Shown: positions 12,670 through 62,214 of the stretch, in pieces
Numbering within the stretch: the stretch's first letter is position 1
Layout of the letters: every line of letters starts with the position of its first letter
Assembly (NCBI GenBank): GCA_964019165.1
Contig: OZ025281.1
Span: forward strand, 149,501-213,500
DNA from: Mastigias papua
Taxonomy: Eukaryota > Cnidaria > Scyphozoa > Rhizostomeae > Mastigiidae
Direction of reading: 5' to 3'
Length of the DNA stretch: 64,000 bases
Made by a program: the position numbers and the translations under genes
The notes under the pieces: generated by a model
Databases searched by the model: none
The model's input: the letters and a program-made list of their open reading frames with translations, nothing else
Told to the model about the DNA's origin: nothing

Positions 12670-12673
12670 AAAT

Positions 12674-16158: not shown

Positions 16159-16159
16159 T

Positions 16160-19358: not shown

Positions 19359-19362
19359 CATG
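19359..19362. repeat. Target-site duplication CATG (right)
   Basis: Matches 12469-12472. Removing one copy and the inner element restores one continuous frame register of the outer pol. Confidence 0.85.
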
Positions 19363-20205
19363 TAAAGGTGCTCTTATTGGAAGAACAGGGCGCTTTTGTT
19401 TTATGCAACTACAGACATTTGTAATAAAATTTTCTATATCCGTTTGCATACGAGGCCAAAAGAAACGTTGGCGAACGAGATCGAGGACCCTGTCAGTACC
19501 TAAATGATCCATCTCTTCGTGGAGTTCTTTCATAACAAATCTATGATATTTCGAAGGTAATACGATTTGTTTACGCGATCCATTGTTTCGAATAACAAGA
19601 CCGTTATTAGTTAGTTCCAACTTATTCCATTCATGTAGTAAACGCTTTACGTTCTGCGACTCACGTGATATTTCACGTGGAGAAGGTTTAATTTTTCTAC
19701 TTACAAAATTCAATACGCGACTGATTGTTTGGTCTTGGGCTTGAGATTGACATAAATCGACAGCATTAATCTTTTCAAAACTATTTTCCTTTCCTGAATC
19801 TCCTATTGCAAGTACATTATAATCAGTAGTTAACGACGAAATCCATGTGGACTCTCCTTGTTCGCTTATTTTGGCTGCATATGCTACAGCTTGTCTCGTA
19901 TCTGTCGTTGTTTCCTCCGTACAAGTTTCCATATACGATTCGAAATTCTGAGATAAACGAGATAAAGTGTCTGCATCACGATTAATTTTTCCCGGATGAT
20001 ATTTAATTTTGAAATTAAAGTCGGCTAATTCACTTATCCATCGAAGACCGGATGCGTTCAATTTTGCAGACGATAAAACGTAAGTCAAAGGATTATTATC
20101 GGTATAAACGGTAAACGAAGGAACGTAATAAAGGTAATCGCGAAACTGCTCACACACAGACCATTTTAAAGCCAAAAATTCAAGCTCTCCCGAGTGAAGA
20201 TGATA
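19363..20205 (-). pseudogene. Outer element RNase H (second half) and integrase zinc finger
   Basis: On the minus strand the frame at 20175 starts within RNase H ([51 protein letters not shown]). It continues through a connector to the integrase HHCC finger (ELHEEMDHLGTDRVLDLVR, FFWPRMQTDIENFITNVCSC), where both Cys residues are present. It then reaches the CATG point at which the inner element entered. A frameshift near 20205 separates it from the first half of RNase H. The order matches the inner element throughout. Confidence 0.9.
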
Positions 20206-35200: not shown

Positions 35201-38200
35201 AATGTAGGATGTCACAAATAATCCCCAATGTCTGTACAAACATCCAAAGTCTATAACGGAGTCATACACATAATGTAAGATGTTACAACTAATTGCCAAT
35301 GTCTGTAAAAACACCTAACTCTAATACGGAGTCATACAACAAATGTAAGATGTCACAAGTAATTCCCAATGTCTGTAAACACCTTCTAAGACTAAAACAC
35401 AGTCCTACAAATAATGTAGAATGTCACAAATAATCTCCAATGACTGTACAAACATCCTAAGTCTAATACGGAGTCATACACATAAAGTAAGATATCACAA
35501 ATAATTCCCAATGTCTGTAAAACCTTCCTACGTCTACTACGAAGTCATACAGATAATGTAAGATGTAACAACATAATTCCCAATGTCTGTGAGAACTTCT
35601 TAATAAGTCTAATACGGAGTCATACATATAAAGTAAGATGTTACAAATAATTCCCAATGTCTGTAAAAACTTCCTAGGTCTACTACGAAGTCATACAAAT
35701 ATTGAAAGATGTTACAAATAATTCCCCATGTCCGTAAACACCTCCTAAGTCTAATACGAAGTCATACAAATAATGTAAGATGTTACACATAATTCACAAT
35801 TTCTGTACAAAATTCTTAAGTCTAATACGAGGTCATACAAATAATGTAAGATGTCACAAATACTTCCCAATGTCTGTAACAACCTCCAAAGACTAAAACG
35901 AAGTCTTACAAATACTGTAGGATGTCACACAAAATCCCCAATGTCTCTAGAAACATCCTAAGTCTACTACGAAGTCAGACAAATAATGTAAGATGTTACA
36001 AATAATCCCCAATACCCGTAAAAGCCTCCTAAGTCTAATACGAAGTCATACAACAACTGTAAGATGTAACAAATAATTCGCAATGTAAGTAAAAACCTCC
36101 TAAGTCTAATACGAATTCATACACATAATGTAAGATGTCACAACTTATTGCACATGTCTGTACAAAATTCCTAAGTCTATTACGAAGTCAAACAACTAAT
36201 GTAAGATTTCACAAGTAATTCCCAATGTCTGTAACAAATTCTTAAGTCTAATCCGAAGTCATACAAATAATGTAGGATGTCACAAATAATCCCCAATGTC
36301 TGTACAAACATCCTAAGTCTATTAAGGAGTCATACACATAATGTAAGATATTTTAAATAATTCCCAATGTCTGTAAAAACTTCCTTAGTCTAATACGGAG
36401 TCATACAAATATTGTAAGATGTCACAAATAATTACCAATGTCTGTACACAACTCCTAAGATTAAAACGAAGTCCTACAAATAATGTAAGATGTTACAGAT
36501 AAGTCCCAATTTCTGTAAAAACTTCCTACGTCTAATACAACGTCACACAAATAATGTAGGATGTTACAAATACTTCCCAATGTCTGTAAAAACTTCCTAC
36601 GTTTAATACAAAGCCATACATATAATGTAAACTTTTTAAGTCTAATACGACGTCACACAAATAATGTAAGATGTCACAAATGATTCCAAATGTCTGTACA
36701 ACATTCTTAAGTCTAATACGAAGTCATACACATAATGTAAGACGTTAAAAATAATCCCCAATGTCCGTAAACGCCTAAAAAGCCTACTACGAAGTCATAC
36801 AAATAATGTAAGATGTTACAAATAATCCCCAATGTCTGTAAAAACTTCCTAAGTCTAATACGAAGTCATACAAATAATGTAAGATGTTACAAATAATTCC
36901 CACTGTCTGTAAACACTTCCTAAGTCTAATACGAAGTCATACAAATAATGTAAGATATTACACTTAATTCCCAATGTCTGTAAACACCTCCAAAGACTAA
37001 ACCTAAGTCATACAAATACTGTAGGATGTCACAATAAATCCCCTATGTCTGTAGAAACATCCTAAGTCTAATACGAAATCATACACATACTGTAAGATGT
37101 TAGAAATAATCCCCAATGTCCGTAACAACCTTCCAAGTCTAATACGAAGACATACAAATAATGTAATATGCTACAAATAATTCTCAATTTCTACAAAAAC
37201 CTCCTAAGTCTAATACGACGTCATACAAATAATGTAAGATGTTACAAATAATTCTCAATGTTCGTAAAAACTTCCTAAGTCTACTACGAAGTCATACAGA
37301 TAACCTAAGACGTTACAAATAATTCCCAATGTCTGTAAAACCTTTTTAAGTCTAATACGACGTCACACACATAATGTAAGATGTTACAAGTACTTCCCAA
37401 TGTCTGTAAACACTTCCTAAGTCAAAAACGAAGTCATACAACTAATGTAAGATGCCACAACTGATTCCACATGTCTGTTACAAATTCTTAAGTCTAATAC
37501 GAAGTCCTACAAATAATGAAGGATGTTACAAATAATTCTCAATGTCTGTAACAACTTCCTAAGTCTAATACGAAGTCATAAAAATAATCTAAGATGTTAA
37601 AAATAATTTCCAATGTCCGTAAAAACTTTCTAACTCTACTACGAAGTCACACAAATAATTTAAAATGTCACAAATGATTCCAAATGTCTGTAAAACATTC
37701 TAAAGTCTAATACGAAGTCATACAAATAATGTACGATGTTACAAATAATCCCTAATATCCGTAAAAGCCTCCTAAGTCTAATACGAAGTCATACACATAA
37801 TGTAAGATGTTACAAATAATCCCCAATATCCGTAAAAGCCTCCTAAGTCTAATACGAAGTCATACAAAAAATGTAAGATTTTACACATAATTCCCAATGT
37901 CTGTAAAAACTTCCTAAGTCTAACACGGAGTCATACAAATAATGAACTATCTTACAAATAATTCCCAATATCCGTAAACTCCTCCTAAGTGTAATACGAA
38001 GTTATACAAATAATGTACTATGTCACAAATGATTCCAAATATCTATAACAAATTCTTAAGTCTAATACGAAGTTTTACAACTAATGTAAGATGTCACAAA
38101 TAATCTCCAATGTCTGTACAAACATCCTAAGTCTATTACTGAGTCATACACATAATGTAAGGTGTTACAAATAATTCCCAATGTCCGTAAAAACTTCCTA

Positions 38201-39399
38201 AGTCTAATACAGAGTCATACAAATAATGTAAGATGTTACAAATAATTCCCAATGTCCGTGAAAACCTCCTAAGTCTAATACGAATTCATACACATAATGT
38301 AAGATGTCACAACTTATTGCAAATGTCTGTACAAAATATTTAAGTCTATTACGAAGTCAAACAAATAATGTAGGATTTCACAAGTAATTCCCAATGTCTA
38401 TAACAAATTCTTAAGTCTAATCCGAAGTCATACAAATAATGTAGGATGTCACAAATAATCCCCAATGTCTGTACAAACATCCTAAGTCTATTAAGGAGTC
38501 ATACACATAATGTAAGATGTTATAAATAATTCCCAATGTCTGTAAAAACTTCCTTAGTCTAATACGGAGTCATACAAATAATCTAAGATGTTACAAGTAA
38601 TTTCCAATGTCCGTAAAAACTTTCTAACTCTACTACGAAGTCACACAAATAATGTAAAATGTCACAAATGATTCTAAATGTCTGTAAAACATTCTTAAGT
38701 CTAATACGAAGTCATACAAATAATGTACGATGTCACAAATAATTCCCACTGTCTGTAAAACACCTCCACAGACTACACCGATGTCATACAAATACTGTAG
38801 GATATCACACACCATCCCCAATGTCTGTAGAAACATCCTAAGTCTAATACGGAGTCATACAAATAATGAAAGATGTTACAAATAATTCTCAATGTCTGTA
38901 ACACCTTCCTAAGTCTAGTACGAAGTCATACAAATAATGTAAGATGTTACAAATAATTCCCAATGTCTGTAAAAACTTCCTAAGTCTAATACGAAGTCAT
39001 ACAACTAATGTAAGGTGTCACAAATGATTCCACATGTCTGTAACAAATTCTTAAGTCTACTACGAAGTCCTACACATAATGTAGGATGTCACAAATCATA
39101 CCCAATGTCCGTAAAAGCCTCCTAAGTCTAATACGAAGTCATACAAATAATGTAAGATGTTACACATAATCCCAAATGTCTGTAAACACCTCCTAAGTCT
39201 AATCCGAAGTCATACAACTAATGTAACGCGTCACAACTGATTCCAAATGTCTGTAAAACATTCTTAAATCTCATACCAAGTCATACAAATAATGTAACAT
39301 GTCACAAATAATTCCCAATGTCTGTAAAAACCTCCAAAGACTCCCACGAAGTCATACAAATACTATGGAATGTCACACAAACTCCCTAATGTCTGTAGA

Positions 39400-42300
39400 A
39401 ACATCCTAAGTCTAATACGGAGTCATACAAATAACGTAAGATGTTACAAATAATTCAAAATGTCTGTAAAAACCTCCTAAGTCTAATACGAAGTCATACA
39501 AATAATGTAATATGTTACAAATAATTCACAATGTCTGTAAAACCTTCCTAAGTCTATTACGAAGTCATACAAATAATGTAAGATGTTACACTCAATTCCC
39601 AATGTCTGTAAAAACTTCCTAGGTCTAATACGAAGTCATACAAATAATATAAGATGTTACAACTAATTCCCAATGTCTGTAAAAACTTCCGAAGTCTAAT
39701 ACGATGTCACACAAATAATGTAAGATGTTACAAATAATTCCCAAAGTCTGTAAACACTTTCTAAGTCTAATACGAAGTCATACAAATAATGTAAGATGTC
39801 ACAACTGATTCCACATGTCTGTAACAAATTCTTAAGTCTAATACGAAGTCCTACAAATAATGACAGATGTTACAAATAAATCCCAATGTCTGTAAAATCT
39901 TCCCACGTCTAAAACAGAGTCCTACAACTAATGTAAGATGTTACAAATAATTCCCAATGTCTGTAAAAACTTCTTAAGTCTAATGCGACATCATACCACT
40001 AATGTAAGCTGTCACAACTAATTCCCAATGTCTGTAAAAACCTCCTAACACTAAAACAAAGTCATACAAATAATGTAGGATGTCACAAATAATCCCCAAT
40101 GTCTGTACAAACATCCTAAGCCTAATACGGAGTCATACAAATAATGTAAGATGTTACAAATAATTTCAAATGTCTGTAAAAATATCCTAAGTCCAATACG
40201 GAGTAATACAATTAATCTAAGATGTTACAAATAATTCCCAATGTCATTAAAACTCCTTACGTTTAATACGACGTCATACAAATAATGTAAGATGTTACAA
40301 ATAATTCCCAATGTCTGTAAAAACTTCTTAAGTCTAATGCGAAGTCATACCACTAATGTAAGCTGTCACAAATAATTCCCAATGTCTGTAAAAACCTCCT
40401 AAGACTAAAACAAAGTCATACAAATAATGTAGGATGTCACAAATAATCCCCAATGTCTGTACAAACATCCTAAGCCTAATACGGAGTCATACAAATAATG
40501 TAAGATGTTACAAATAATTTCAAATGTCTGCACAAATATCCTAAGTCCAATACGGAGTAATACAATTAATCTAAGATGTTACAAATAATTCCCAATGTCA
40601 TTAAAACTCCTTACGTTTAATACGACGTCATACAAATAATGTAAGATGTTACAAACAATTTCCAATGTCTGTAAAAACTTCCTAAGTCTAATACGGAGTC
40701 ATACAAATAATATAAGATGTCACAAATGCTTCCAAATGTCTGTAACAACTTCTTAAGTCTAATACCAAGTCATACAAATAATGTAAGATGTCACAAATAA
40801 TTCCCAATGTCTGTAAAAACTTCCTAAGTCTAATACGGAGTCATACAAATAATGTAAGATGTTACAAATAATTCCCACTGTCTGTAAACAAATCCTAAGC
40901 CTAATACGAAGTCATACAAATAATGTAAGATGTTACAAATAATTCCCAATGTCTGTAAAAACTTCCTAAGTCTAATACGAAGTCATGCAAATAATGTAAG
41001 ATGTTACAAATAATCAACAATGTCTGTAAACACCTCCTAAGTCTAATCCGAAGTCATACAACTAATCTAAAGCGTCACAAATGATTCCAAATGTCTGTAC
41101 AACATTCTTAAATCTACTACCAAGTCATACAAATAATGTAACATGTCACACATAATTCCCAATGTCTGTAAAAACCTCCAAAGTCTAACACGAAGTCATA
41201 CAAATACTACGGAATGTCACACAAAATCCCCAATGTCTGTAGAAACATCCTAAGTCTAATACGGAGTCATACAAATAACGTAAGATGTTACAAATAATTC
41301 AAAATGTCTGTAAAAACCTCCTAATTCTAATACGAAGTCATACAAATAATGTAAGATGTTACAAATAATTCACAATGTCTGTAAAACCTTCCTAAGTCTA
41401 ATACGAAGTCATACAAATAATGTAAGATGTTACACTCAATTCCCAATGTCTGTAAAAACTTCCTAGGTCTAATACGAAGTCATACAAATAATATAAGATG
41501 TTACAACTAATTCCCAATGTCTGTAAAAACTTCCGAAGTCTAATACGACGTCACACAAATAATGTAAGATGTTACAAATAATTCCCAAAGTCTGTAAACA
41601 CTTTCTAAGTCTAATACGAAGTCATACAAATAATGTAAGATGTCACAACTGATTCCACATGTCTGTAACAAATTCTTAAGTCTAATACGAAGTCCTACAA
41701 ATAATGACAGATGTTACAAATAAATCCCAATGTCTGTAAAAATTTCCCACGTCTAAAACAGAGTCCTACAACTAATGTAAGATGTTACAAATAATTCCCA
41801 ATGTCTGTAAAAACTTCTTAAGTCTAATGCGAAGTCATACCACTAATGTAAGCTGTCACAAATAATTCCCAATGTCTGTAAAAACCTCCTAAGACTAAAA
41901 CAAAGTCATACAAATAATGTAGGATGTCACAAATAATCCCCAATGTCTGTACAAACATCCTAAGCCTAATACGGAGTCATACAAATAATGTAAGACGTTA
42001 CAAATAATTTCAAATGTCTGTACAAATATCCTAAGTCCAATACGGAGTAATACACTTAATCTAAGATGTTACAAATCAGTCCCAATGTCATTAAAACTCC
42101 TTACGTTTAATACGACGTCATACAAATAATATAAGATGTTACAAATAATTTCCAATGTCTGTAAAAACCTCCTAAGACTAAAACCAAGTCATACAAATAA
42201 TGTAGGATGTCACAAACGATCCCCAATGTCTGTACAAACATCCTAAGCCTAATACGGAGTCATACAAATAATGTAAGATGTTACAAATAATTTCAAATGT

Positions 42301-45300
42301 CTGTACAAATATCCTAAGTCCAATACGGAGTAATACAATTAATCTAAGATGTTACAAATAATTCTCAATGTCATTAAAACTCCTTACGTTTAATACGACG
42401 TCATACAAATAATGTAAGATGTTACAAATAATTCCCAATGTCTGTAAAAACTTCTTAAGTCTAATACGAAGTCATACCACTAATGTAAGCTGTCACAAAT
42501 AATTCCCAATGTCTGTAAAAACCTCCTAACACTAAAACAAAGTCATACAAATAATGTAGGATGTCACAAATAATCCCCAATATCTGTACAAACATCCTAA
42601 GCCTAATACGGAGTCATACAAATAATGTAAGATGTTACAAATAATTTCAGATGTCTGTACAAATATCCTAAGTCCAATACGGAGTAATACAATTAATCTA
42701 CGATGTTACAAATAATTCCCAATGTCATTAAAACTCCTTACGTTTAATACGACGTCATACAAATAATGTAAGATGTTACAAATAATTTCCAATGTCTGTA
42801 AAAACTTCCTAAGTCTAATACGGAGTCATACAAATAATATAAGATGTCACAAATGCTTCCAAATGTCTGTAACAACTTCTTAAGTCTAATACCAAGTCAT
42901 ACAAATAATGTAAGATGTCACAAATAATTCCCAATGTCTGTAAAAACTTCCTAAGTCTAATACGGAGTCATACAAATAATGTAAGATGTTACAAATAATC
43001 AACAATGTCTGTAAACACCTCCTAAGTCTAATCCGAAGTCATACAACTAATCTAAAGCGTCACAAATGATTCCAAATGTCTGTAAAACATTCTTAAATCT
43101 ACTACCAAGTCATACAAATAATGTAACATGTCACAAATAATTCCCAATGTCTGTAAAAACCTCCAAAGACTAACACGAAGTCATACAAATACTATGGAAT
43201 GTCACACAAAATCCCCAATGTCTGTAGAAACATCCTAAGTCTAATACGGAGTCATACAAATAACGTAAGATGTTACAAATAATTCAAAATGTCTGTAAAC
43301 ACCTCCTAAGTCTAATACGAAGTCATACAAATAATGTAAGATGTTACAAATAATTCACAATGTCTGTAAAACCTTCCTAAGTCTAATACGAAGTCATACA
43401 AATAATGTAAGATGTTACACTCAATTCCCAATGTCTGTAAAAACTTCCTAGGTCTAATACGAAGTCATACAAATAATATAAGATGTTACAACTAATTCCC
43501 AATGTCTGTAAAAACTTCCGAAGTCTAATACGACGTCACACCAATAATGTAAGATGTTAAAAATAATTCCCAAAGTCTGTAAACACTTTCTAAGTCTAAT
43601 ACGAAGCCATACAAATAATGTAAGATGTCACAACTGATTCCACATGTCTGTAACAAATTCTTAAGTCTAATACGAAGTCCTACAAATAATGACAGATGTT
43701 ACAAATAAATCCCAATGTCTGTAACAACTTCCCACGTCTACAACAGAGTCCTACAACTAATGTAAGATGTTACAAATAATTCCCAATGTCTGTAAAAACC
43801 TCCTAAGACTAAAACAAAGTCATACAAATAATGTAGGATGTCACAAATAATCCCCAATGTCTGTACAAACATCCTAAGCCTAATACGGAGTCATACAAAT
43901 AATGTAAGACGTTAAAAATAATTTCAAATGTCTGTACAAATATCCTAAGTCCAATACGGAGTAATACACTTAATCTAAGATGTTACAAATCAGTCCCAAT
44001 GTCATTAAAACTCCTTACGTTTAATACGACGTCATACAAATAATATAAGATGTTACAAATAATTTCCAATGTCTGTAAAAACCTCCTAAGACTAAAACAA
44101 AGTCATACAAATAATGTAGGATGTCACAATTGATCCCCAATGTCTGTACAAACATCCTAAGCCTAATACGGAGTCATACAAATAATGTAAGATGTTACAA
44201 ATAATTTCAAATGTCTGTACAAATATCCTAAGTCCAATACGGAGTAATACAATTAATCTAAGATGTTACAAATAATTCCCAATGTCATTAAAACTCCTTA
44301 CGTTTAATACGACGTCATACAAATAATGTAAGATGTTACAAATAATTCCCAATGTCTGTAAAAACCTCCTAAGACTAAAACAAAGTCATACAAATAATGT
44401 AGGATGTCACAAATAATCCCCAATGTCTGTACAAACATCCTAAGCCTAATACGGAGTCATACAAATAATGTAAGATGTTACAAATAATTTCAGATGTCTG
44501 TACAAATATCCTAAGTCCAATACGGAGTAATACAATTAATCTACGATGTTACAAATAATTCCCAATGTCATTAAAACTCCTTACGTTTAATACGACGTCA
44601 TACAAATAATGTAAGATGTTACAAATAATTTCCAATGTCTGTAAAAACTTCTTAAGTCTAATGCGAAGTCATACCACTAATGTAAGCTGTCACAAATAAT
44701 TCCCAATGTCTGTAAAAACCTCCTAAGACTAAAACAAAGTCATACAAATAATGTAGGATGTCACAAATAATCCCCAATGTCTGTACAAACATCCTAAGCC
44801 TAATACGGAGTCATACAAATAATGTAAGATGTTACAAATAATTTCAAATGTCTGCACAAATATCCTAAGTCCAATACGGAGTAATACAATTAATCTAAGA
44901 TGTTACAAATAATTCCCAATGTCATTAAAACTCCTTACGTTTAATACGACGTCATACAAATAATGTAAGATGTTACAAACAATTTCCAATGTCTGTAAAA
45001 ACTTCCTAAGTCTAATACGGAGTCATACAAATAATATAAGATGTCACAAATGCTTCCAAATGTCTGTAACAACTTCTTAAGTCTAATACCAAGTCATACA
45101 AATAATGTAAGATGTCACAAATAATTCCCAATGTCTGTAAAAACTTCCTAAGTCTAATACGGAGTCATACAAATAATGTAAGATGTTACAAATAATTCCC
45201 ACTGTCTGTAAACAAATCCTAAGCCTAATACGAAGTCATACAAATAATGTAAGATGTTACAAATAATTCCCAATGTCTGTAAAAACTTCCTAAGTCTAAT

Positions 45301-45700
45301 ACGAAGTCATGCAAATAATGTAAGATGTTACAAATAATCAACAATGTCTGTAAACACCTCCTAAGTCTAATCCGAAGTCATACAACTAATCTAAAGCGTC
45401 ACAAATGATTCCAAATGTCTGTACAACATTCTTAAATCTACTACCAAGTCATACAAATAATGTAACATGTCACACATAATTCCCAATGTCTGTAAAAACC
45501 TCCAAAGTCTAACACGAAGTCATACAAATACTACGGAATGTCACACAAAATCCCCAATGTCTGTAGAAACATCCTAAGTCTAATACGGAGTCATACAAAT
45601 AACGTAAGATGTTACAAATAATTCAAAATGTCTGTAAAAACCTCCTAATTCTAATACGAAGTCATACAAATAATGTAAGATGTTACAAATAATTCCCAAT
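39400..45700. repeat. Higher-order repeat block within the 71-bp array
   Basis: Variant monomers recur at long intervals. GTCATTAAAACTCC occurs at about 40245, 40599, 42089, 42372, 42726, 44003, 44286, 44569 and 44923, giving spacings of 283, 354 and 1914. TACACTCAATT occurs at 39587, 41431 and 43416. A segment of about 1.35 kb at 40020-41370 is nearly identical to 44344-45694, offset 4324. Confidence 0.85.
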
Positions 45701-47699
45701 GTCTGTAAAAACTTCCCACGTCTAATACGGAGTCCTACAAATAATTTAAGATGCTTTAAATAATTCCTAATCTCTGTAAAAACTTCCTAAGTCTAATATG
45801 ACGTCGTACAAATAATGTAAGATGTTACAAATTATCCCCAATATCCGTAAAAACCTCCTAAGTCTAATACGAAGTCATACACATAATGTAAGATGTCACA
45901 AATGATTCCACAGGTCTGTAAAAAATTCTTAAGTCTAATACGAAATCATACAAATAATGTAGGATGTCACAAATAATTCTCAATGTCTGTAAAAAATTCT
46001 TAAGTCTAATACAAAGTCATACACATAATGTAAGATGTCACAAATAATTACCAATGTCTGTAAAAACCTCCTAGAACTAACACGAAGTCCTACAAATACT
46101 GTAGGATGTCACAAAACCCCAAATGTCTGTACAAACATCCAAAGTCTAATACTAAGTCATACAAATAATGTAAGATGTTACAAATAATTTCCATCGTCTG
46201 TAAAACCTTCCTGAATCTAATACCACGTCATACAAATAATGTAAGATGTTACAAATAATTCGCAATGTCTGTAAACACTTCTTAAGTCTAATACGAAGTC
46301 ATACACATAATGAAAGATGTCACAAATACTTCCCAATGTCTGTAAAAACCTCCTAAGACTAAAACGACGTCCTACAAATAATGTAGGATGTCACAAATAA
46401 TCCCCAATGTCCGAACAAACATCCTAAATCTAATACGAAGTCAAATAATGTAAGATGTTACAAATAATTCGCAATGTCCGTAAAAGCTTCCTAAGTCTAA
46501 CACGAAGTCCTACAAATACTGTAGGATGTCACAAAAACCCCCAATGCCAGTACAACTATCCTAAGTCTACTACGAAGTCATACAAATAATATAAGATGTT
46601 CGAAGTAATTCCCAATGTCTGTACAAACTTCCTAAGTCTAATACGAAGTCATTCAAATAATGTAAGATGTTACAAATAATTCCCAATGTCTGTAAAATCC
46701 TCTCAAGTCTAATACGAAGCGATATAAATAATGTAAGATATCACAAATAATTCCCAATGTCTGTAAAAACCTCCTAAGTCTACTACGAAGCCATATAAAT
46801 AATGTAGGATATCACAAATAATTCCCAATGTCTGTAACAACTTCTTAATAAGTCTTATACGAAGTCTAACAAATACTGAAAGATGTCACAAATAATTCCC
46901 AATGTCTTCACAAAATTCCTACGTCTACTACGAAGTCATACAGATAATGTAAGATGTCAGAAATAATTCCCAATGTCTGTGAGAAGTTCTTAATACGTCT
47001 AATACGAAGTCATACAAATAATGTAAGATGTCACAAATAATTGCCAATGTCCGTACAAATTTGCTAAGTCTAATACGGAGTCATACAAATAATGTAAGAT
47101 GTCACAAATAATTACCAATGTCTGTAAACTTCTCCTAAGACTACCACGAAGTCCTACAAATACTGTAGGATGTCACAAAAACCCCAAATGTCTGCACAAA
47201 CATCATAAGTCTAATACGAAGTCATACAAATAATGTAAGATGTTACAAATAATTCTCAATGTCTGTGAAAACTTCCTAAGTCTAATACGAAGTCATACAA
47301 ATAATGTAAGATGTTACACATAATTCCCATTGTCTATAAAAACCTTCTAAGTCTAATACGAAGTCATACAAATAATGTAAGATGTCACAAATGATTCCAA
47401 ATGTCTGTAAAATATTCTTAAGTCTAATACGAAGTCATACAAATAATGTAAGATGTTACAAATAATTCCCAATACCTGTAAAAACTTCCTAAGTCTAATA
47501 CGAAGTCATACAAATAATGTAAGATGTTACAAATAATTCCCAATGTCTGTAAAAACTTCCTAAGTCTAATGCGAAGTCATACAAATAATGTAAGATGTTA
47601 CAAATAATTACCAATGTCTGTAAAAACCTCCTAACACTAAAACGAAGTCATACAGATAATGTAAGATGTCACAAATGATTCCAAATGTCTGTACAAACC

Positions 47700-48540
47700 T
47701 CCTAAGTCTAATACGAAGCCATACAAATAATGTAAGATGTCATTAATAATTCCCAATGTCTGTAAAAACCTCCTAAGTCTAATACGAAGCCATATAAATA
47801 ATGTAGGATGTCACAAATAATTCCCAATGTCTGTAACAACTTCTTAAGAAGTCTAATACGAAGTCATACAAATAATGTAAGATGTCACAAATAATTCCCA
47901 ATGTCTGTGAGAACTTCTTAATAAGTCTAATACGAAGCCATACAAATAATGTAAGATGTCATAAATAATTCCCAATGTCTGTAAAAACCTTCTAAGTCTA
48001 ATACGAAGCCATATAAATAATGTAGGATGTCACAAATAATTTCCAATGTCTGTAACAACTTCTTAAGAAGTCTAATACGAAGTCATACAAATAATGTAAG
48101 ATGTCACAAATAATTCCCAATGTCTTTACAAAATTCCTACGTCTACTACGAAGTCATACAGATAATGTAAGATGTCACAAATAATTCCCAATGTCTGTGA
48201 GAACTTCTTAATAAGTCTAATACGAAGCCATGCAAATAATGTAAGATGTCATAAATAATTCCCAATGTCTGTAAAAACCTCCTAAGTCTAATACGAAGCC
48301 ATATAAATAATGTAGGATGTCACAAATAATTCCCAATGTCTGTAACAACTTCTTAAGAAGTCTAATACGAAGTCATACAAATAATGTAAGATGTCACAAA
48401 TAATTCCCAATGTCTTTACAAAATTCCTACGTCTACTACGAAGTCATACAGATAATGTAAGATGTCACAAATAATTCCCAATGTCTGTGAGAACTTCTTA
48501 ATAAGTCTAATACGAAGTCATGCAAATAATGTAAGATGTC
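47700..48540. repeat. 290-bp four-monomer higher-order repeat at the array edge
   Basis: Four-monomer units of 290 bp repeat near-identically; TGTCTTTACAAAATTCCTAC recurs at 48121 and 48411. The unit carries two length-variant monomers. Confidence 0.8.
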
Positions 48541-48700
48541 ACAAATAATTGCCAATGTCCGTACAAAATTGCTAAGACTAATACGAAGTCATAAAATTAA
48601 TGTAAGATGTCAAAAGTAATTCCCAATGTCTGTAAAAAGTTCCTAATATTAATATGATGTCCCAAAATAATGCAAGATGTCACAAATAATTCCTAAAGGC

Positions 48701-50099: not shown

Positions 50100-50800
50100 G
50101 TTAGTCAATAACTAAAGTGTTACTAAAAGTCTTTCATGTTTCCGGTAAGCAAGTAGTTCCAACCTATTGCTGACCTATGCCTGAATGCTGTCATGCCAAG
50201 TTCTGTATTAGGTTTATTATCTCTCATTTTTGTATTGTCTCTCATACTACGAGTACAAATATCGCATTTTTCTATTATTTTTTCAATCCGTTCAGGACAG
50301 TTTTTATAGTAGGCTGTGTGTGATAAACATAGCAACCATTTCTTGTATACATAACAAATAGATTTCCATTTTACCGGTCTTGCCAGTTGTTCACTTTGTC
50401 CTTTGGATGCTTTCATGATAATGTCATAAGCTCTTTGGTGGATTCTGTCAATTCTCTCTAGCTGTCTTTTAGAACAACTCCCCCATACTCCTATTCCATA
50501 AGTCACACTGGGTAATATTCTATTGAAGTGTATTTTCTTTAAAATCTGAGAGGGGAGGCTTTTAAACCTTCTTAAGTTCTTAAGCTCAATGCTCATGTTT
50601 GTTGCTAAGTCAGTGATATGTTTGTTTCTAAGTCAGTGATATGTTTGTTTCTAAGTCAGTGATATGTTTGTTTCTAAGTCAGTGATATGTTTGTCCCAGG
50701 TGAGCTTGTGGTCAATTTTGAACCCAAGACATTTTGCAGTGGTTACATAACTGAGGACCTGATCATCTAATTTTATTGATTTCACAGGACCCATGAACTC
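50100..50800 (-). pseudogene. CR1/jockey-like LINE RT C-terminus
   Basis: Reading leftwards from 50800, the frame gives GPVKSIKLDDQVLSYVTTAK and CLGFKIDHKLTWDKHI, then a tandem 23-base expansion that breaks the frame. It continues as IELKNLRRFKSLPSQILKKI, ILPSVTYGIGVWGSCSKRQL, IHQRAYDIIMKA and NTELGMTAFRHRSAIGWNYL to 50123. This is the thumb and C-terminal region of a CR1/jockey-type LINE reverse transcriptase. It has the same strand as the PHD-endonuclease fragment at 57931-58427, so both could be ends of one element now separated by satellite and a Penelope fragment. That link is not proven. Confidence 0.75.
50605..50696. repeat. 23-base tandem repeat, four copies
   Basis: The units are CTAAGTCAGTGATATGTTTG plus three bases, repeated at 50605, 50628, 50651 and 50674. 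It lies inside the LINE frame and shifts it, because 23 is not a multiple of three. Confidence 0.95.
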
Positions 50801-51230
50801 TTTACTTCATTATAGCACGAAAAAGCGGGAACATTGCTTTAGCATACTGAAAGCTTTTTTCGTCCGACACTCGTCAGAGTATGAAACGTCGGATAGCGAC
50901 CGAAAGGTGAAACGAAATATATAGCCAGATGCGGGTACACGTGATATGATGAATAATGCGTCTATTTGGCTCTATGATTGGCCAATTAGCACCTATTCAC
51001 CATTGTTTACTTGAAAAGTCCAAGTGAAAAACGAACTCTTTTTGTTTACATGAGACTGGGTTTTGAGTCTTGATGTAAACCGATTCCAAAACACCTAAAT
51101 GAAAGGACAATCTTGCTTGCCCAATGATCCGAAAATTATCGTCTGTATATGTTTTGGCGCATTCTGGATTTGTAATAAGATGTTGTCCTATGGCCGAATC
51201 ACTTTTCATTTTAGACATAGAGTTAGCAAT
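50801..51230 (-). pseudogene. Penelope-like element 3' end (GIY-YIG domain C-terminus and tail)
   Basis: The minus-strand frame at 51218-50997 reads KSDSAIGQHLITNPECAKTY, DDNFRIIGQARLSFHLGVLE and SVYIKTQNPVSCKQKEFVFH. This matches my knowledge of the C-terminus of the GIY-YIG endonuclease of Penelope-like elements, including the LE--YIK--P-LC-Q-EF block. The N-terminal GIY-YIG motif and the RT are absent: the fragment starts abruptly at the 54-bp satellite. Downstream, 50996-50801 would be the tail with a hammerhead-like core at 50878-50859. Family call from motif recognition only. Confidence 0.65.
50859..50878 (-). ncRNA. Hammerhead ribozyme-like core
   Basis: The minus strand reads CTGACGAGTGTCGGACGAAA. 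CUGANGA and CGAAA are the conserved hammerhead strands, with a short stem between. Its place after a Penelope GIY-YIG frame fits the known ribozymes of these elements. The outer stems are not clear, so activity is doubtful. Confidence 0.4.
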
Positions 51231-54200
51231 CCTCTTGTAGAAAATTAGGTAACAACACCAGCTGTTACTACCCTTCCTATCCCACGTCTTCTAGCATATT
51301 AGGCAAACACACCAGATGTTACTAGCCTTCCTATCCCTCCTCTTGTAGTATATTAGGTAACCACACCAGATGATACTAGCCCTCCTATCCCACGTCTTCT
51401 AGCATATTAGGCAACAACACGAGATGTTATTAGCCTTCCTATCACTCCTCTTTGTAGTATTTTAGGCGGCCACACCAGATGTTACCAACCTCCCTATCCC
51501 TCCTCTTGTAGTATATTAGGTAACCACACCAGGTGTTACTAGCCTTCCTATCCCACGTCTTCTAGTATATTAGGCAATCACACCAGATGTTACTAGCCTT
51601 CCTATCCCTCCTCTTGTAGTATATTAGGCAACCACACCAGATGTTACTAGCCTTCATATCCCTCCTCTTGTAGTATATTACACAACAACACCAGGTGTTA
51701 CTAGCCTTCCTATCCCTCCTCTTGTAGTATATTACGCAACACCACCGGATGTTACTAGCCTTCCTATCCCTCCTCTTGTAGTATATTAGGCAACCACACC
51801 AGATGTTAATAGCCTCCCTTTCCCTCGTTTTGTAGTATATTAGACAACCACACCAAATGTTACTAGCCTTCCTATCCCTCCTCTTGTAGTATATTACGCA
51901 ACACCACCGGATGTTACTAGCCTTCCTATCCCTCCTCTTGTAGTATATTAGGCAACCACACCAGATGTTAATAGCCTCCCTTTCCCTCGTCTTGTAGTAT
52001 ATTAGACAACCACACCAAATGTTACTAGCCTTCCTATCCCTCCTCTTGTAGTATATTATGCAAAAACACCAGACGTTACTAGCCTTCCTATCCCTCCTCT
52101 TGTAGTATATTAGGCAACCACACCAGATGTTACCACCATTCCTATCCCTCGTCTTGTAGTATATTAGACAACCACACCGGATGTTACTAGCCTTCCTATC
52201 CCTCGTCTTGTAGTATATTAGACAACAAAACCAGATGTTACTAGCCTTCCTATCCCTCCTCTTGTAGTATATTAGGCAACCACACCAGGTGTTACTAGCC
52301 TTCCTATCCCTCCACTTGTAGTATATTAGGCAACAACACCAGATGTTACTAGCCTTCCTATCCCTCCTCTTGTAGTATATTAGGCAACCACACCAGATGT
52401 TACTAGCCTCCCTTTCCCTCGTCTTCTAGTATATTAGACAACAACACCATATGTTACTAGCCTTCCTATCCCTCCTCTTGTAGTCTATTATGCAAAACCA
52501 CCAGACGTTACTAGCCTTCCTATCCCTCCTCATGTAGTGTATTAGGCAACCACACCAGGTGTTACCAACCTTCCTATCCCTCGTCTTGTAGTATATTAGA
52601 CAACCGCACCAGATGTTACTAGCCTTCCTATCCCTCCTCTTAACGTATATTAGACAACAACACCAGATGTTACTAGCCTTCGATATCCCTCCTCTTGTAG
52701 TATATTAGGCAACCACACCAGGTGTTACTAGCCTTCCTATCCCTCGTCTTGTAGTATATTAGGCAACCACATCAGGTGTTTCTAACCTTCCTATCACTCG
52801 TCTTGTAGTATATTAGGCAACCACACCAGGTGTTACTAGCCTTCCTATCCCTCCTCTTGTAGTATATTAGGCAACCACACCAGGTGTTACTAAGCTTCCT
52901 ATCCCTCCTCTTGTAGTATATTAGGCAACAACACCAGGTGTTACTAGCCTCCCTATCCATCCTCTTGTAGTATATTAGGCAACCACACCAGATGTTACTA
53001 GCCTTCCTATCCCTCCTCTTGTAGTATATTAGGCAACCACACCGGATGTTACTAGCCTTCCTATCCCTCCTCTTGTAGTATATTAGGCAACCACACCAGA
53101 TGTTACTAGCCTCCCTATCCCTCGTCTTGTAGCATATAAGACAATACCAGGAGATGTTACTAGCCTTCCTATCACTCCTCTTGTAGTATTTTAGGCAACC
53201 ACACCAGATGTTACTAGCCTCCATCTCCCTCCTCTTGTAGTATATTAGGTAACTACACCAAGTGTTACTAGCCTTCCTATCCCTCCTGTTGTAGTATATT
53301 AGGTAACACCACAAGGTGTTACTAGCCATCCTATCCCACGTCTTCTAGCATATTAGGCAACCACACCAGATGTTACTAGCCTCCCTATCCCTCCTCTTGT
53401 AGTATATTAGGCAACCACACTGGATGTTACTAACCTTCCTATCCCTCCTCTTGTAGTATATTATGCACCAACACCAGATGTTACTAGCCTCCCTATCCAT
53501 CCTCTTTTAGTATATTAGCCAACCACACCAGATGTTACTAGCCTTCCTATCCCTCCTCTTGTAGTATATTAGGCAACAACACCAGATGTTACTAGCCGTC
53601 CTATCCCTCCTCTTCTAGAAGATTAGGCAACCACACCGGATGTTACTAGCCTTCCTATCCCTCCTCTTGTAGTATATTACACAACAACACTGGATGTTAC
53701 TAGCCTTCCTATCCCTCCTCTTATAGTATATTAGGCAACAACACCAGATGTTACTAGCCTTCATATCCCTCCTCTTGTAGTATATTAGGCAACCACACCA
53801 GGTGTTACCAGCCTTCCTATCCCTAGTCTTGTAGTATATTAGGCAACCACACCAGATGTTACTAGCCTCCCTTTCCCTCGTATTGTAGTATATTAGACAA
53901 CCACACCGGATGTTACTAGTCTTCCTATCCCTCGTCTTGTAGTATATTAGACAACAACACCAGATGTTACTAGCCTTCATATCCCTCCTCTTGTAGTATA
54001 TTAGGCAACCACACCAGGTGTTACCAGCCTTCCTATCCCAAGTCTTGTAGTATATTAGACAACAACACCAGATGTTACTAGCCTTCATATCCCTCCTTTG
54101 GCAGTATATTAGACAATCAAACCAGATGTTACTAGCCGTCCTATCCCTCCTCTTAAAGTATATTAGGCAACAACACCAGATGTTACTAGCCTTCCATATC

Positions 54201-57200
54201 CCTCCTCTTGTAGATTATTAGGTAACCACACCAGATGTTACTAGCCTTCCTATCCAACGCCTTTTAGCATATTATGCACCCACACCAGATGTTACTAGCC
54301 TTCCTATCCCTCCTCTTGTAGTATATTAGGTGACCACACCAGATGTTACTAGCCTTCCTATCCCTCCTCTTGTAGTATATTAAGTAGCCACATAAGGTGT
54401 AACTAGCCTTCCATATCCCTCCTCTTGTAGTTCATTAGGTAACCACACCAGATGTTACTAGCCTTCCTATCCCTCCTCTTGTAGAATATTAGGTAACCAC
54501 ACCAGGTGTTACTAGCCTTCCTATCCCACGTCTTCTAGCATATTAGGCAACCACACCAGATGTTACTAGCTTTCCTATCCCTCCTCTTGTAGTACATTAG
54601 GCAACAACACCAGATGTTACTAGCCGTCCTATCCCTCCTCTTTTAGTATATTAGGCAACCACACCAGGTGTTAATAGCCTTCCTATCCCTCCTCTTGTAG
54701 TATATTAGGCAACCACACCAGGTGTTACTAGCCTTCCTATCCCTCCTCTTGTAGTATATTAGGCAACAACACCAGGTGTTACTAGCCTTCCTATCCCTCC
54801 TCTTGTAGTATATTAGGCAACCACACCAGATGTTACTAGCCTTCCTATCCCTCCTCTTGTAGTATATTAGGCAACCACACCGGATGTTACTAGCCTTCCT
54901 ATCCCTCCTCTTGTAGTATATTAGGCAACCACACCAGATGTTACTAGCCTTCCTATCCCTCCTCTTGTAGTATATTAGGCAACAACACAAGATGTTACTA
55001 GCCTCCCTATCCCTCCTCTTGTAGTATATTAGCCAAACCACACCAGATGTTACTAGCCTTCCTATTCCTCCTCTTGTAGTATATTAGGCAACCACATCAG
55101 GTGTAACTAGCCTTCCTATTCCTCCTCTTGTAGTATATTAGGCAACAACACCAGATGTTATTAGCCTTCCTATCCCTCGTCTTGTAGTATATTAGACAAC
55201 AACACAAGGTGTTACTAGCCTTCATAACACTCCTCTTGTACTATATTAGGCAACCACACCAGATGTTACTAGCCTCCCTATCCCTCCTCTTGTAGTATAT
55301 TACACAACAACACCTGGTGTTACTAGCCTTCCTATCCCTCCTCTTGTAGTATATTAGGCAACAACACCAAATGTTACTAGCCTTCCTATCCCTCGTCTTG
55401 TAGTATATTAGACAGCAACACCAGATGTTGCTAGCCTTCCTATCACTCCTCTTGTAGTATGTTAGGCAACCACACCAGGTGTTACTAGCCTCCCTATCCA
55501 TCCTCTTGTAGCATATTAGGAAACCACACCAGGTGTTACTAGCCTTCCTATCCCTCCTCTTGTAGTATATTAGGTAACCACATAAGGTGTAACTAGCCTT
55601 CCATATCCCTCCTCTTGTAGTATATTAGGTAACTACACCACATGTTACTAGCCTTCCTATCCCTCGCCTTGTAGCATAGTAGACAATAACACGAGATGTT
55701 ATTAGCCTTACTATCACTCCTCTTGTAGTATTTTAGGCGACCACACCAGATGTTACTAGCCTCCCTATCCCTCCTCTTGTAGAATATTAGGTAACCACAC
55801 CAGGTGTTACTAGCCTTCCTATCCCACGTCTTCTAGCATATTAGGCAACCACACCAGATGTTACTAGCTTTCCTATCCCTCCTCTTGTAGTATATTAGGC
55901 AACAACACCAGATGTTACTAGCCGTCCTATCCCTCCTCTTGTAGTAAATTAGGCAACCACACCAGATGTTACTAGCCTTCCTATCCCTCCTCCTGTAGTA
56001 TATTAGGCAACCACACCAAGTGCTACTAGCCTCCCTATCCCTCCTCTTGTAGTATATTAGGCAACAACACCAGATGTTACTAGCCTCCCTATCCCTCCTC
56101 TTGTAGTATATTAGCCAACCACACCAGATGTTACTAGCCTTCCTATCCCTCCTCTTGTAGTATATTAGATAACCACACCAGGTGTTACTAGCCTTCCTAT
56201 CCCTCCTCTTGTAGTATATTAGGCAACCACACCAGATGTTACTAGCCTTCCTATCCCTCCTCTTGTAGTATATTAGGCAACAACACCAGATGTTACTAGC
56301 CTCCTTATCCCTCCTCTTGTAGTATATTAGGCAACCACACCAGATGTTACTAGCCTTCCTATCCCTCCTCCTGTAGTATATTGGGCAACCACAACAAGTG
56401 TTACTAGCCTCCCTATCCCTCCTCTTGTAGTATATTAGGCAACCACACCAGATGTTACTAGCCTTCCTATCCCTCCTCCTGTAGTTTATTAGGCAACCAC
56501 ACCAAGTGCTACTAGCCTCCCTATCCCTCCTCTTGTAGTATATTAGGCAACAACACCAGATGTTACTAGCTTCCCTATCCCTCCTCTTGTAGTATATTAG
56601 CCAACCACACCAGATGTTACTAGCCTTCCTATCCCTCCTCTAATAGTATATTAGGCAACCACACCAGGTGTTACTAGCCTTCCTATCCCTCCTCTTGTAG
56701 TATATTAGGCAACCACACCAGATGTTACTAGCCTTCCTATCCCTCCTCTTGTAGTATATTAGGCAACCACACCAGATGTTACTAGCCTTCCTATCCCTCC
56801 TCTTGTAGTATATTAGGCAACCACACCAGATGTTACTAGCCTTCCTATCCCTCCTCTTGTAGTATATTAGGCAACCACACCAGATGTTACTAGCCTTCCT
56901 ATCCCTCCTCTTGTAGTATATTAGGCAACCACACCAGATGTTACTAGCCTTCCTATCACTCCTCTTGTAGTATTTTAGGCAACCACACCAGATGTTACTA
57001 GCCTCCATCTCCCTCCTCCTGTAGTATATTAGGCAACCACACCAAGTGCTACTAGCCTCCCTATCCCTCCTCTTGTAGTATATTAGGCAACAACACCAGA
57101 TGTTACTAGCCTCCCTATCCCTCCTCTTGTAGTATATTAGCCAACCACACCAGATGTTACTAGCCTTCCTATCCCTCCTCTTGTAGTATATTAGATAACC

Positions 57201-57930
57201 ACACCAGGTGTTACTAGCCTTCCTATCCCTCCTCTTGTAGTATATTAGGCAACCACACCAGATGTTACTAGCCTTCCTATCCCTCCTCTTGTAGTATATT
57301 AGGCAACAACACCAGATGTTACTAGCCTCCTTATCCCTCCTCTTGTAGTATATTAGGCAACCACACCAGATGTTACTAGCCTTCCTATCCCTCCTCCTGT
57401 AGTATATTGGGCAACCACAACAAGTGTTACTAGCCTCCCTATCCCTCCTCTTGTAGTATATTAGGCAACCACACCAGATGTTACTAGCCTTCCTATCCCT
57501 CCTCCTGTAGTTTATTAGGCAACCACACCAAGTGCTACTAGCCTCCCTATCCCTCCTCTTGTAGTATATTAGGCAACCACACCAGATGTTACTAGCTTCC
57601 CTATCCCTCCTCTTGTAGTATATTAGCCAACCACACCAGATGTTACTAGCCTTCCTATCCCTCCTCTAATAGTATATTAGGCAACCACACCAGGTGTTAC
57701 TAGCCTTCCTATCCCTCCTCTTGTAGTATATTAGGCAACCACACCAGATGTTACTAGCCTTCCTATCCCTCCTCTTGTAGTATATTAGGCAACCACACCA
57801 GATGTTACTAGCCTTCCTATCCCTCCTCTTGTAGTATATTAGGCAACCACACCAGATGTTACTAGCCTTCCTATCCCTCCTCTTGTAGTATATTAGGCAA
57901 CCACACCAGATGTTACTAGCCTTCCTATCT
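51231..57930. repeat. 54-bp satellite array, about 124 copies, open on the minus strand
   Basis: The period is 54 bp. On the minus strand each unit translates to RRDRKASNIWCGCLIYYK or a close variant. As 54 is a multiple of three the frame stays open across many units, giving minus-strand frames of 122-185 residues (for example 52772-53329, 53615-54088 and 54643-55041). These are by-products of the repeat, and I see no separate gene. At its right end the array passes in frame into LINE endonuclease sequence at 57931. Left-end units are more diverged than right-end units, consistent with expansion or homogenisation near the LINE side. Confidence 0.95.
55990..57930. repeat. Duplicated 19-unit block (1026 bp) in the 54-bp array
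   Basis: Marker variants recur exactly 1026 bp apart: TTGGGCAACCACAACAAGTG at 56381 and 57407, and the TAATAG variant at 56641 and 57667. The two blocks span about 55990-56904 and 57016-57930. Confidence 0.85.
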
Positions 57931-58427
57931 CTCCTGGTAAGTATGTATCCTTCTACATTCATCAGTTCATCCTTTATATCACCATTCATGTGTGTTTTAC
58001 TTATACCCAAGATTTCAAGCCTTGTTTCGTGTAACAGGAAGCTTATCTGTGCCATTCTATTGAATAGACCATTGACATTAATCTGCGATACTTTGAGTCC
58101 TGATCTTTTAATCTTATTCCTCAGTCCATCATAAATATCGCAATCCCGAGTACTATCTTCAACCCGAGGTCCTAATCTATTTACTATGCCAATATATTTT
58201 GCACAGTACCACTGCTCATCCGTGGTAACAAGCATCTCATAAGTTTCTGGAGCCATGCTTATACACTTAATATGATACCACGAGTCGCACCTATCGCAGC
58301 ATATCCCAATACTTTTTACTGAGCCTTGGCATTTCCCACATGGGTCTTTTAATTGTCCACGGTTTAAACTTACATCCCCGGCTAACAATACCTGTAATTT
58401 GCTCACCTTACAGCAATTCGTTGACAC
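57931..58427 (-). pseudogene. CR1-like LINE ORF start: 2A-like relic, PHD finger, endonuclease N-terminus
   Basis: From the ATG at 58427, residues 16-25 read AGDVSLNRGQ, which resembles a decayed 2A-type skipping motif (DVExNPGP) known at the start of some LINE proteins. Residues 30-78 form a PHD finger: CGKC, CCDRCDSWYHIKC, WYCAKY, with the final Cys replaced by Tyr. The endonuclease begins at about residue 110 (LKVSQINVNGLFNRMAQISF, LEILGISKTHM). Its usual ETH reads KTH, so a metal-binding Glu is lost. After DELMNVEGYILTRRDR the frame runs straight into the 54-bp satellite. The element was defective or became so. Confidence 0.85.
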
Positions 58428-58675
58428 AATTTTCCGGTTTAGGCTATTCCTCGTGACTAAAGCTAGCCCCCCCCCCCTTGAGCTCGAATCCCATTTAAAT
58501 TCATTTCCATTGCGATTTGTAAAGCTATTTTTTCGCTCCTTTCCCTTTCTAACTATTTCCAGTGATGTTCAACTTTCCGTTTTTAAATGTATTTGCAATT
58601 AGAAAGAGTGTAACTACCAGCATCGAGAACATGAATTTACAGCGTTTGAAACGTGCAACCGCCATAAGTTAGTTT
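58428..58675. other. 5' flank of the PHD-LINE
   Basis: No frame of note; a run of C at about 58467-58478. It may be the LINE leader. Confidence 0.45.
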
Positions 58676-59840: not shown

Positions 59841-62160
59841 TATTGTTTTTAATGTAAAGTCAATCAGAGTAGAGTCAGAGTACCGTAAACATCAATGTCT
59901 CCCCTTCTCTGCCTCCATGTTCTCTGCATGTTAGATAGTGATAACTACTAACAACTGATAAACGACGGATATCACTAAACAAATACAGCACCCTACATGA
60001 AGCAACAATCTCACTTCCCTATAGATCTATTATTAACGAAATATTTTCGGAGATATTTTTCTTTCAAGTATTAGAGATTTGTTTTTCACAGCCATTATTA
60101 GATCCATTATTAGAGATTGAATTTTTAAAGTCATTACTAGATCTACTATTAGAGACTTATCTTTAACGTCATAAATAGACCTATCATTAGAGATTTATTC
60201 CTTAAAGTCAATAGATTTATTATTAAAGATTTATTTTTAACGTCCCTAATAGATCTATCATTAGAAATATATCTTTTAATGCTAATAGTAGATCTACTAT
60301 TAGAGATTGACCTTTACGTCATAAATACACCTATCATTAGAGAAATATTCTAAAGGCATTAATAGATTTATTCTTACAGGTTCATTTTTTAATGTCACTA
60401 ATAGATATTATATTCCTATTATTAGAGATATATTTTTTAAGGTCATTAACAGACCTATTGTTCAGGAATTATTTCTTAAAATCATTAAGAATTATTTATT
60501 AAATCAATAATTAATTAGAATAGTTAATTGAATAATACTAATAATTTATAATTTATAATTGATTTGTTTAGTTTTATTGGATTATTTAATTAAATTAAAT
60601 AATTAGATTTATCTATTTCTTAATTTTGGAAGATATTTTTCTTTCTATTATTAGAGATTAATTTTTCAAAGTCATAAATGGATCTATTATTAGAGATTTC
60701 CTTTTAGGAGATATCTTACTTTTTAGTAACATAGATTTATTTTGTACAACCATTAATAGATCTGTTATTAGAGATTTCCTTTTTAGAGCAATTAATAGAT
60801 CTATTATTAGAGATTTATTTTTAAAGCCATAAATAGACCTTTTATTAGAGATTAATTTTTAACGGCATCGATAGCTCTATTATTTGACATTTATTTTTAG
60901 GAGATACTTTTCTTTCTATTATTAGAGATCTATTTTCTAAAGCCTTTAATGCATCTATTATTAGACTTTTTCACAGCTATTAATAGATCTTTTATTAGAG
61001 ATATATTTCTAAGGTCACTGATAGATCTAATTGGGGTTTTATTTTTCACAATCATTATTATATATATTATTAGAGATTTTGTTCTAGGAAACAGTTTTCT
61101 TTCTATTAATAGAGATTTATTCTTAAAGCCGCTCTTATATCAAATGTTAAAGATTTATTTTTATAGCTATTACTAGGTCTATTAATAGCGATTTATTTTT
61201 AAAGCTATTAATAGGACCCTATATCATAGATTTACTTTTTAACTTCATTAATAGGTTTATTATAAGTGATTTATTTTTAAAGCTATTAATAGGACCCTAT
61301 ATTATAGATTTACTTTTTAACTTCATTAAGCTATTAAAAGATCTATTATAAGAGATTTACACTTAGGATATATTGTTCTTTCTATTATTAAAGAATTATT
61401 TTTAAAAGCCATTAATAGGTCTATTACTATACAATTACTTTTTAACGCCACAAATAGATCTATTATTACAAATTAATTTTTTAAGCCCATTAATAGACCT
61501 ATTATTAAAGATTTAGTTTTAAAGCCACCAATAAACCCATTATTAGAGATTTATTTTTAAAGCCATTAATTGATCTATTAAATGAGATTTATTTTTACAA
61601 AATATTTTCTTTCTATTCTCAGATATTTATTTTTTGAAGTCATTAATAGATCAATAAATAAAGATTTAATTTTTACAGGCAATAATAGATCGATTATTAC
61701 AGAATTACTTTTAAGAGATACATTTCCTTCTAATAATATAGATCCTTTTTCAAAAACCATTAATAGATCGACTATCAGAGATTTATTTTTTAAAGACTTT
61801 AAAGCCATTAATAGATCAATTACTGGGAATTAATTTTGTAAAGCAATTGATAGATCTGTTATTAGAGATTTATTGCTTAAAGTCACTAATAGATTTATTA
61901 CTAGAGATTTACTTGTAGGATATATTTTTCCTTTAAATTAATAGATCTATTAATAGAGATTTATTTCTAGAGTAATTAATAGATCTACTATTAAAGATTT
62001 ATGTTTCTAAAACCATAAATAGATCTATTATTAGAGATTTATTTTTAAAGCCATTAGTAGATCTATCATTAGAAATTTATTGTTTAAAAGAATTAATACA
62101 TCTACTATTAGAGATTTATTTTTAGGAGATATTTTTCTTTCTATTATTAGAGCTTTTTTC
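59270..62160. repeat. Degenerate AT-rich array, about 39-bp unit
   Basis: A repeat of roughly 38-40 bp recurs with heavy decay. Typical words are AATAGATCTATTATTAGAGA and TTTATTTTTAAAGCCATT. The core AATAGATCTATT is a perfect 12-base palindrome. Copies are clear at 59290-59390 and 60020-62150, with breaks at 59400-60010 (unique DNA and a TA tract) and near 60490-60620. Some units carry an inserted GGAGATATTTTTCTTTCTAT segment, suggesting two alternating unit types. Open frames here are artefacts. Confidence 0.85.
59637..59837. repeat. TA dinucleotide microsatellite with interruptions
   Basis: TA-rich tract with TATG and TTTATA interruptions, then a pure run of about 80 bases. Confidence 0.95.
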
Positions 62161-62214
62161 AAAGCTATTAATTGATCTATTATATATTTCATATATATTT
62201 CATATTTCATATTT

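Follow-up and report, generated by a model that had tools for sequence, protein, structure and literature searches.

A 54-bp tandem array in Mastigias papua that very probably arose from LINE endonuclease coding sequence

Can the birth of a satellite from coding sequence be read from a single locus? Where a satellite came from must usually be guessed, the parent having vanished and only faint similarity being left. A 54-bp tandem array near a chromosome end of Mastigias papua raises this question, since a first-pass annotation of the DNA had proposed that a satellite was born there from the endonuclease coding sequence of a LINE. The window, i.e. the whole stretch of 64,000 nucleotides that was analyzed, corresponds to C19:149501-213500 in a 346.8-Mb assembly of 172 contigs.

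The array and its junction with a LINE head

TRF revealed a 54-bp tandem on the minus strand at 51230-57935 with 124.1 copies and 89% matches, and a wraparound alignment of this array resolved it into 124 full units plus four bases, with the consensus RRDRKASNIWCGCLIYYK. A 24-base unit pattern (up to three mismatches) gave 122 matches in the window, from 51255 to 57926, against a mean of 0.00 matches in 100 dinucleotide shuffles of the window. This count bears out the more than 100-fold tandem amplification of one 54-bp stretch that had been claimed, while the extent then given (51231..58427) is correct for the array part only, as 51230-57935, the remainder from 57936 to about 58418 being the head of the LINE. 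The consensus unit amounts to 18 codons without a stop, and open frames in the array reach 341 aa. However, a stop codon is present in 16 of the 124 units and a one-base insertion, which shifts the frame, in six, so that of the frame-keeping attributed to the array the stop-free consensus stands and the constant frame does not.

The LINE head, the 5' part of a PHD-endonuclease LINE (57936..58418, minus strand), is open, lies in frame with the array and was located by tblastn with two related proteins, P0002 and P0012. Residues 7-150 of P0002 aligned to window positions 58310-57879 with 55.6% identity (E 4.6e-49), the alignment stopping at the end of unit 1, and the P0012 match starts at 58418. 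The head encodes a PHD finger (58200..58340, minus strand; residues 77-123 of the ORF at 57666-58568, Pfam PHD E 6.2e-07) followed by an APE-type endonuclease, the start of which was placed by alignment to P0002. P0002 itself matches PF03372 (E 1.7e-11), and a search of solved structures retrieved 48 sequences, mostly PHD fingers, with 2v0s (listed as LR1, E 3.1e-06), which we take to be a LINE endonuclease, matching over the endonuclease part. Within ORF 57666-58568, the LINE frame passes through EGYILTRRDRKAS into unit 1 with no break, just as the first-pass annotation had read it, and this junction unit (57882..57935, minus strand), identical to the consensus in 53 of 54 bases, sits in place as endonuclease coding sequence. 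Its motifs mark the copy as degenerate: in ETH, Lys takes the place of Glu, presumably the catalytic residue, which nine of ten aligned relatives have, and NRGQ is found where the four relatives that cover the site in the ten-relative alignment have NPGP, a motif that we take to belong to a 2A-like peptide.

The origin of the unit was assessed with protein relatives. The LINE part (residues 60-235) used as a protein query yielded three matches among 76 candidates, namely the window itself (P0001) and two relatives, and P0002 used as a query yielded 54 proteins including P0002. Ungapped comparison of the unit covered 55 proteins (P0002-P0056), six of which (P0002-P0006 and P0008) were also compared with shuffled units. 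The unit RRDRKASNIWCGCLIYYK agrees with RKDRKACSTWGGCLIYYK of P0002 in 13 of 18 residues and with P0008 in 11 of 18, in both cases with no gaps; it scores 76 on P0002, where the best of 1000 shuffles scored 48, and 69 on P0008 (best shuffle 43). In none of the six proteins did any of 1000 shuffles score as high as the real unit, the margin being a single point in P0003 (32 vs 31) and P0006 (41 vs 40), and most of the other 49 proteins, which are more distant, gave no good ungapped match to the unit. Downstream of the stretch P0002 continues as endonuclease, whereas the window starts its next unit there, and in an alignment of the window with 10 of the 55 relatives the stretch sits between endonuclease blocks. 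The unit is thus a stretch of LINE endonuclease, as had been suggested, present in a single copy at the homologous place in relatives. With no relative found above 55.6% identity to the head, a base-by-base comparison with the founder DNA was out of reach.

LINE copies of the same genome gave a similar picture. Eight of the 85 places scored with P0002 (out of 2332 candidates) were fetched (L033-L040, 14.6 kb), and in five of them (L033-L036 and L038) the homologous stretch is recognisable once, with a length of 17 to 19 residues. A point against an endonuclease origin of the unit is that the length of the stretch varies in the family, being exactly 18 residues in P0002, P0008, L035 and L036, 19 in P0004 and L033, 17 in P0005, L034 and L038, and 25 in P0003. 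Likewise, L037 has stops within the stretch and L039 carries a divergent form of it. L040, which shows the highest identity to P0002 (71%) among the 85 scored places, lacks the endonuclease. No tandem repeat was present at the endonuclease place in the eight fetched copies of the 85 scored, L040 being without that domain, so that LINE intermediates with a few internal repeats, which the first-pass annotation had proposed to look for, did not turn up among them. Intact copies with an endonuclease devoid of the unit, which would speak against such an origin, were not encountered either, the stretch being single in P0002, L033-L036 and L038.

An older satellite, into which the LINE was inserted or which it captured, is extremely improbable as the source of the array. 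Arrays can attract insertions of transposable elements, and minisatellite capture is the alternative named in the available part of an earlier description of a transposon-derived satellite (PMC7320549); however, the stretch belongs to the endonuclease in relatives that have no array, the junction between LINE and array is in frame, and no unit lies outside the array of the window.

The far side of the array and the remains of the LINE

At its other edge, the array ends at 51230 and is followed, after five bases, by a piece of a dispersed element (50811..51224, minus strand), a truncated insert recognised by DNA matches genome-wide and by its copies in L009-L011. Positions 51000-51224 were matched over their full length at at least 45 other places with 96-98% identity (40 of 2098 candidates scored), and the copies in L009-L011 extend beyond 51224, where the piece in the window stops. 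The coding part of the element in L010 gave matches to GIY-YIG (E 0.0043) and reverse transcriptase (RVT_1, E 0.00068), both weak and under the Pfam cut-offs, on account of which the insert is probably a Penelope-like element. Its copies in the three fetched loci (L009-L011) form inverted pairs that are 95-99.5% identical, many of its genomic places are likewise inverted pairs about 0.3-3.5 kb apart, and more diverged copies lie nearby on C19.

Beyond the insert, the C-terminal part of a reverse transcriptase of the same LINE group was found at 50126..50803 (minus strand), in the orientation of the array and in LINE order. It matches L040 (55%, E 8.6e-54), L034 (31%, E 3e-33) and L035 (30%, E 1.9e-30), while Pfam returned no family at E up to 1 for it or for the 83-aa piece of the insert. 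Both L034 (open frame of 1158 aa) and L035 (1115 aa, with one TGA and one TAG in the matched part) align to the head, the endonuclease stretch and the reverse-transcriptase end of the window. Between the stretch and the reverse-transcriptase end, L034 has 1923 bp and L035 1947 bp; about 1.93 kb is missing in the window, where the rest of P0002 found no match at E below 0.5 outside head and array. Only the end of the reverse transcriptase remains downstream of the array, and it would stem from the same insertion as the head. At the DNA level, the reverse-transcriptase end occurs at four places genome-wide including itself and the head at one place in the 346.8 Mb, which makes a chance meeting of two unrelated fragments 7 kb apart unlikely. 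The array is thus flanked on either side by LINE pieces that share one orientation and lack about 1.93 kb between them, an arrangement suggesting that it probably sits inside one LINE copy. Searches with the insert peptide, the reverse-transcriptase part and the unit pattern in viral_contigs, and with the LINE alignment in genome_contigs and viral_contigs (viral and prokaryote collections), gave no relatives.

The reverse-transcriptase part contains a small 23-bp tandem array of 4.3 copies (50595..50694, minus strand), bounded by the direct repeat ACAAACAT; L040 has a single copy at this site. The octamer ACAAACAT at both ends can serve as a picture of the possible start of such a duplication, and at the LINE edge of the 54-bp array no long direct repeat is left to show the first one. 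L040 has two tandems of its own in coding sequence, at 1382-1424 (21 bp x 2.0) and 2592-2658 (23 bp x 2.9), and the latter is absent from the copy in the window.

These small tandems in the coding sequence of the LINE group (23 bp x 4.3 in the window; 23 bp x 2.9 and 21 bp x 2.0 in L040) lend some weight to template slippage by the reverse transcriptase during retrotransposition as the maker of the first copies, the element having been inserted with few repeats that expanded later. We consider this course of events rather unlikely, since the 23-bp duplications are private to the window's copy and to L040, and since the LINEs are not enriched in tandems: two were detected in the eight fetched copies (14.6 kb), both in L040, whereas the neighbouring 195 kb hold 64 merged loci, a count that is biased by the array-rich neighbours and that leaves out the window's own two LINE tandems. 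A broader form of the same idea, in which retrotransposition would seed satellites, slippage on LINE RNA placing in-frame tandems in an exchange-prone subtelomere, and in which this locus would be a satellite at birth, flanked on either side by remains of its parent and without a daughter array elsewhere, seems slightly more doubtful still. A LINE-specific tendency to tandem duplication, considered separately, was unsupported by the comparison of 2 in 14.6 kb with 64 in the array-rich 195 kb. The array probably owes its growth to its location and not to the element, given that the fetched LINEs are not enriched in tandems, albeit against array-rich neighbours. The 54-bp duplication would have arisen in genomic DNA and not during retrotransposition.

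Copy number, growth and sequence change of the units

Genome-wide, the 24-base unit pattern (up to three mismatches) matched 122 times, always on the same strand, and a reversed control did not match at all; because the window alone holds 122, all genomic matches lie in its array. Two DNA searches with array sequence against the same genome found no other place, the first among the matches listed and the second with its sole candidate scored, and the LINE head, the unit and the reverse-transcriptase part were absent at E 1e-4 from 195 kb of non-N neighbouring DNA. The genome-wide mapping that the first-pass annotation had called for therefore uncovered no array unrelated to the LINE, with 122 of 122 matches in the array of the window. 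Its word satellite fits only loosely. The array is long, runs head to tail and shows block exchange (124 units, with a 19-unit step duplicated), its monomer is homologous to part of a transposable element, and the junction with the parent is retained in frame, but the abundance at many loci that characterises a satellite in the strict sense is lacking, as there is one array of 6.7 kb. For a single locus, newborn array or single-locus array is the better name.

The block exchange is visible at the LINE edge, where a recent 19-unit (1026-bp) step of higher-order duplication spans 55992..57935 (minus strand; 57018-57935 vs 55992-56909), units 1-17 and 20-36 being identical in 916 of 918 bases. 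When units were taken in groups of 18, the mean identity to the consensus was 0.962 and 0.965 in the first two groups, at the LINE edge, and 0.923-0.941 further on. Unit 1 differs at unit position 6, where it carries an A that is absent from all other of the 124 units, as expected for the junction copy, which would be the one least reached by exchange, and one T is inserted at the identical place in units 44, 66, 70 and 98, which points to its spread by exchange. That misassembly produced the length of the array or its 19-unit duplication is very unlikely: near-identical blocks, each about 1 kb long, do pose a problem for assemblers and the array was read from the assembly alone, yet the 15-Mb contig resolves both edges of the array and 124 units, most of them variable.

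The changes among the units look neutral, with no trace of selection on a protein. There are 92 kinds of change, of which 15 are silent, 71 alter an amino acid and six create a stop, and at the observed transition share 17.6, 69.0 and 5.5, respectively, are expected. Selection on the open frames of the array was rejected on this spectrum, which marks them as a by-product. Accordingly, an array kept as a coding repeat protein has next to no probability in spite of open frames of up to 341 aa, given that silent, amino-acid and stop changes occur as expected without selection and that 16 of the 124 units carry stops and six are frameshifted. The translation of the array at 55833-56639 matches Pfam Fibrinogen_BP with 61.5 bits (curated cut-off 50), and this match is an artefact. 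The window's own database protein, P0001, carries the Fibrinogen_BP label, and the 93-aa repeat end of the frame found, in the protein database, this same protein of the window as its sole match (one match among 3074 candidates).

C19 (15.07 Mb) starts with CCCTAA repeats, which places the array about 201-207 kb from the chromosome end. Other repeats were noted in this region. The window also holds a 19.4-kb array with a 71-bp unit and a 213-bp higher-order form at 29294-48693, of which a 507-bp query detected no further trace in the 195 kb of neighbouring non-N sequence, a degenerate AT-rich array with a unit of about 39 bp at 60069-62183, and, at 11189-23895, long frames that resemble Gypsy-type LTR retrotransposons (gag, protease, reverse transcriptase and integrase by eye). 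Satellite arrays of 90-92 bp lie at about 22-70 kb from the telomere (L015-L019, C19:20001-70000), and paired small tandems of 25 and 20 bp recur every ~2.55 kb in L021-L023, suggesting a longer repeated block.

Proposed history of the array and related systems

The array very probably represents a 54-bp endonuclease stretch amplified inside a decayed LINE copy, with subsequent expansion, loss of about 1.93 kb and an insertion at the far edge. A low-copy PHD-endonuclease LINE would have been inserted near the chromosome end and then decayed, and within the copy 54 bp of endonuclease coding sequence, or 18 codons, would have been tandemly duplicated. Unequal exchange may have expanded the duplicated stretch to about 124 units, the LINE-side edge being the last to expand in blocks and one 19-unit step having doubled recently. 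Approximately 1.93 kb of LINE between the array and the reverse-transcriptase end would have been lost, and a truncated, probably Penelope-like element would have been inserted at the far edge of the array. The single insertion behind both LINE pieces and the order of these events are reconstructed from the present arrangement. The array would do nothing as a protein, and its long open frames would survive for no other reason than that the unit length of 54 is divisible by three and that the founder frame was free of stops. The overall origin story of the first-pass annotation, a satellite derived from LINE endonuclease, is hence supported both by the in-frame junction and by the single-copy homologous stretch in relatives.

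PHD fingers have been met in LINEs before: CR1-like LINEs with PHD domains were reportedly described by Kapitonov and Jurka in 2003, and the LINE of the window shares with them a PHD finger and an APE-type endonuclease. What differs is that PHD finger and endonuclease lie in one frame in the window. The LINE of the window is putatively CR1/L2-like, CR1 being the label used in the first-pass annotation.

Transposon-derived satellites are a known kind, as CficCl-61-40 (PMC7320549) and the ORF2-derived PROsat, Pvc 20 and HinfI (PMC9659126) demonstrate. The closest precedent in that material is CficCl-61-40 of Chenopodium, in which about 40 bp of CACTA tnp2 coding sequence form the start monomer of arrays of 8 to ~125 units (PMC7320549). 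There, too, the start monomer is at the same time part of an incomplete transposon domain and has the same direction. However, the available description (PMC7320549) concerns a DNA transposon and not a LINE, several arrays with pan-chromosomal abundance in contrast to one locus here, and a transposon part at one end of the array, whereas here the parent remains on both. Among satellites related to LINE ORF2, the portion of the literature at hand lists PROsat of Phodopus, Pvc 20 of seal and chicken HinfI from CR1, in all of which a tandem repeat is akin to ORF2 coding sequence, in HinfI with the 3' UTR as well (PMC9659126). As described there, the relation is one of similarity between repeat and ORF2, whereas here an in-frame junction lies within one LINE copy, 54 bp of endonuclease make up the unit and the array is confined to one locus. 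In Lathyrus, satellites derive from tandem subrepeats in the 3' UTR of Ogre elements, so that a short tandem inside a retrotransposon likewise became a satellite, but the source in the part of the account available is a non-coding, hypervariable region of an LTR element (PMC7004042). A LINE endonuclease as the source, parent remains on both sides and a single locus set the present array apart from what the accessible parts of PMC7320549 and PMC9659126 describe. A satellite from LINE endonuclease was not found in the literature searched, which says little, as titles and abstract openings of open-licence papers were covered, and those partially.

For annotation, the locus carries a warning, since such an array yields long open frames and an above-cut-off Pfam match (Fibrinogen_BP, 61.5 bits), both of them meaningless. 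For the biology of satellites, one 8-kb stretch displays the parent, the junction, the unit, the block duplication and the single locus together, so that sister species could be used to date and follow how a satellite is born from coding sequence and grows.
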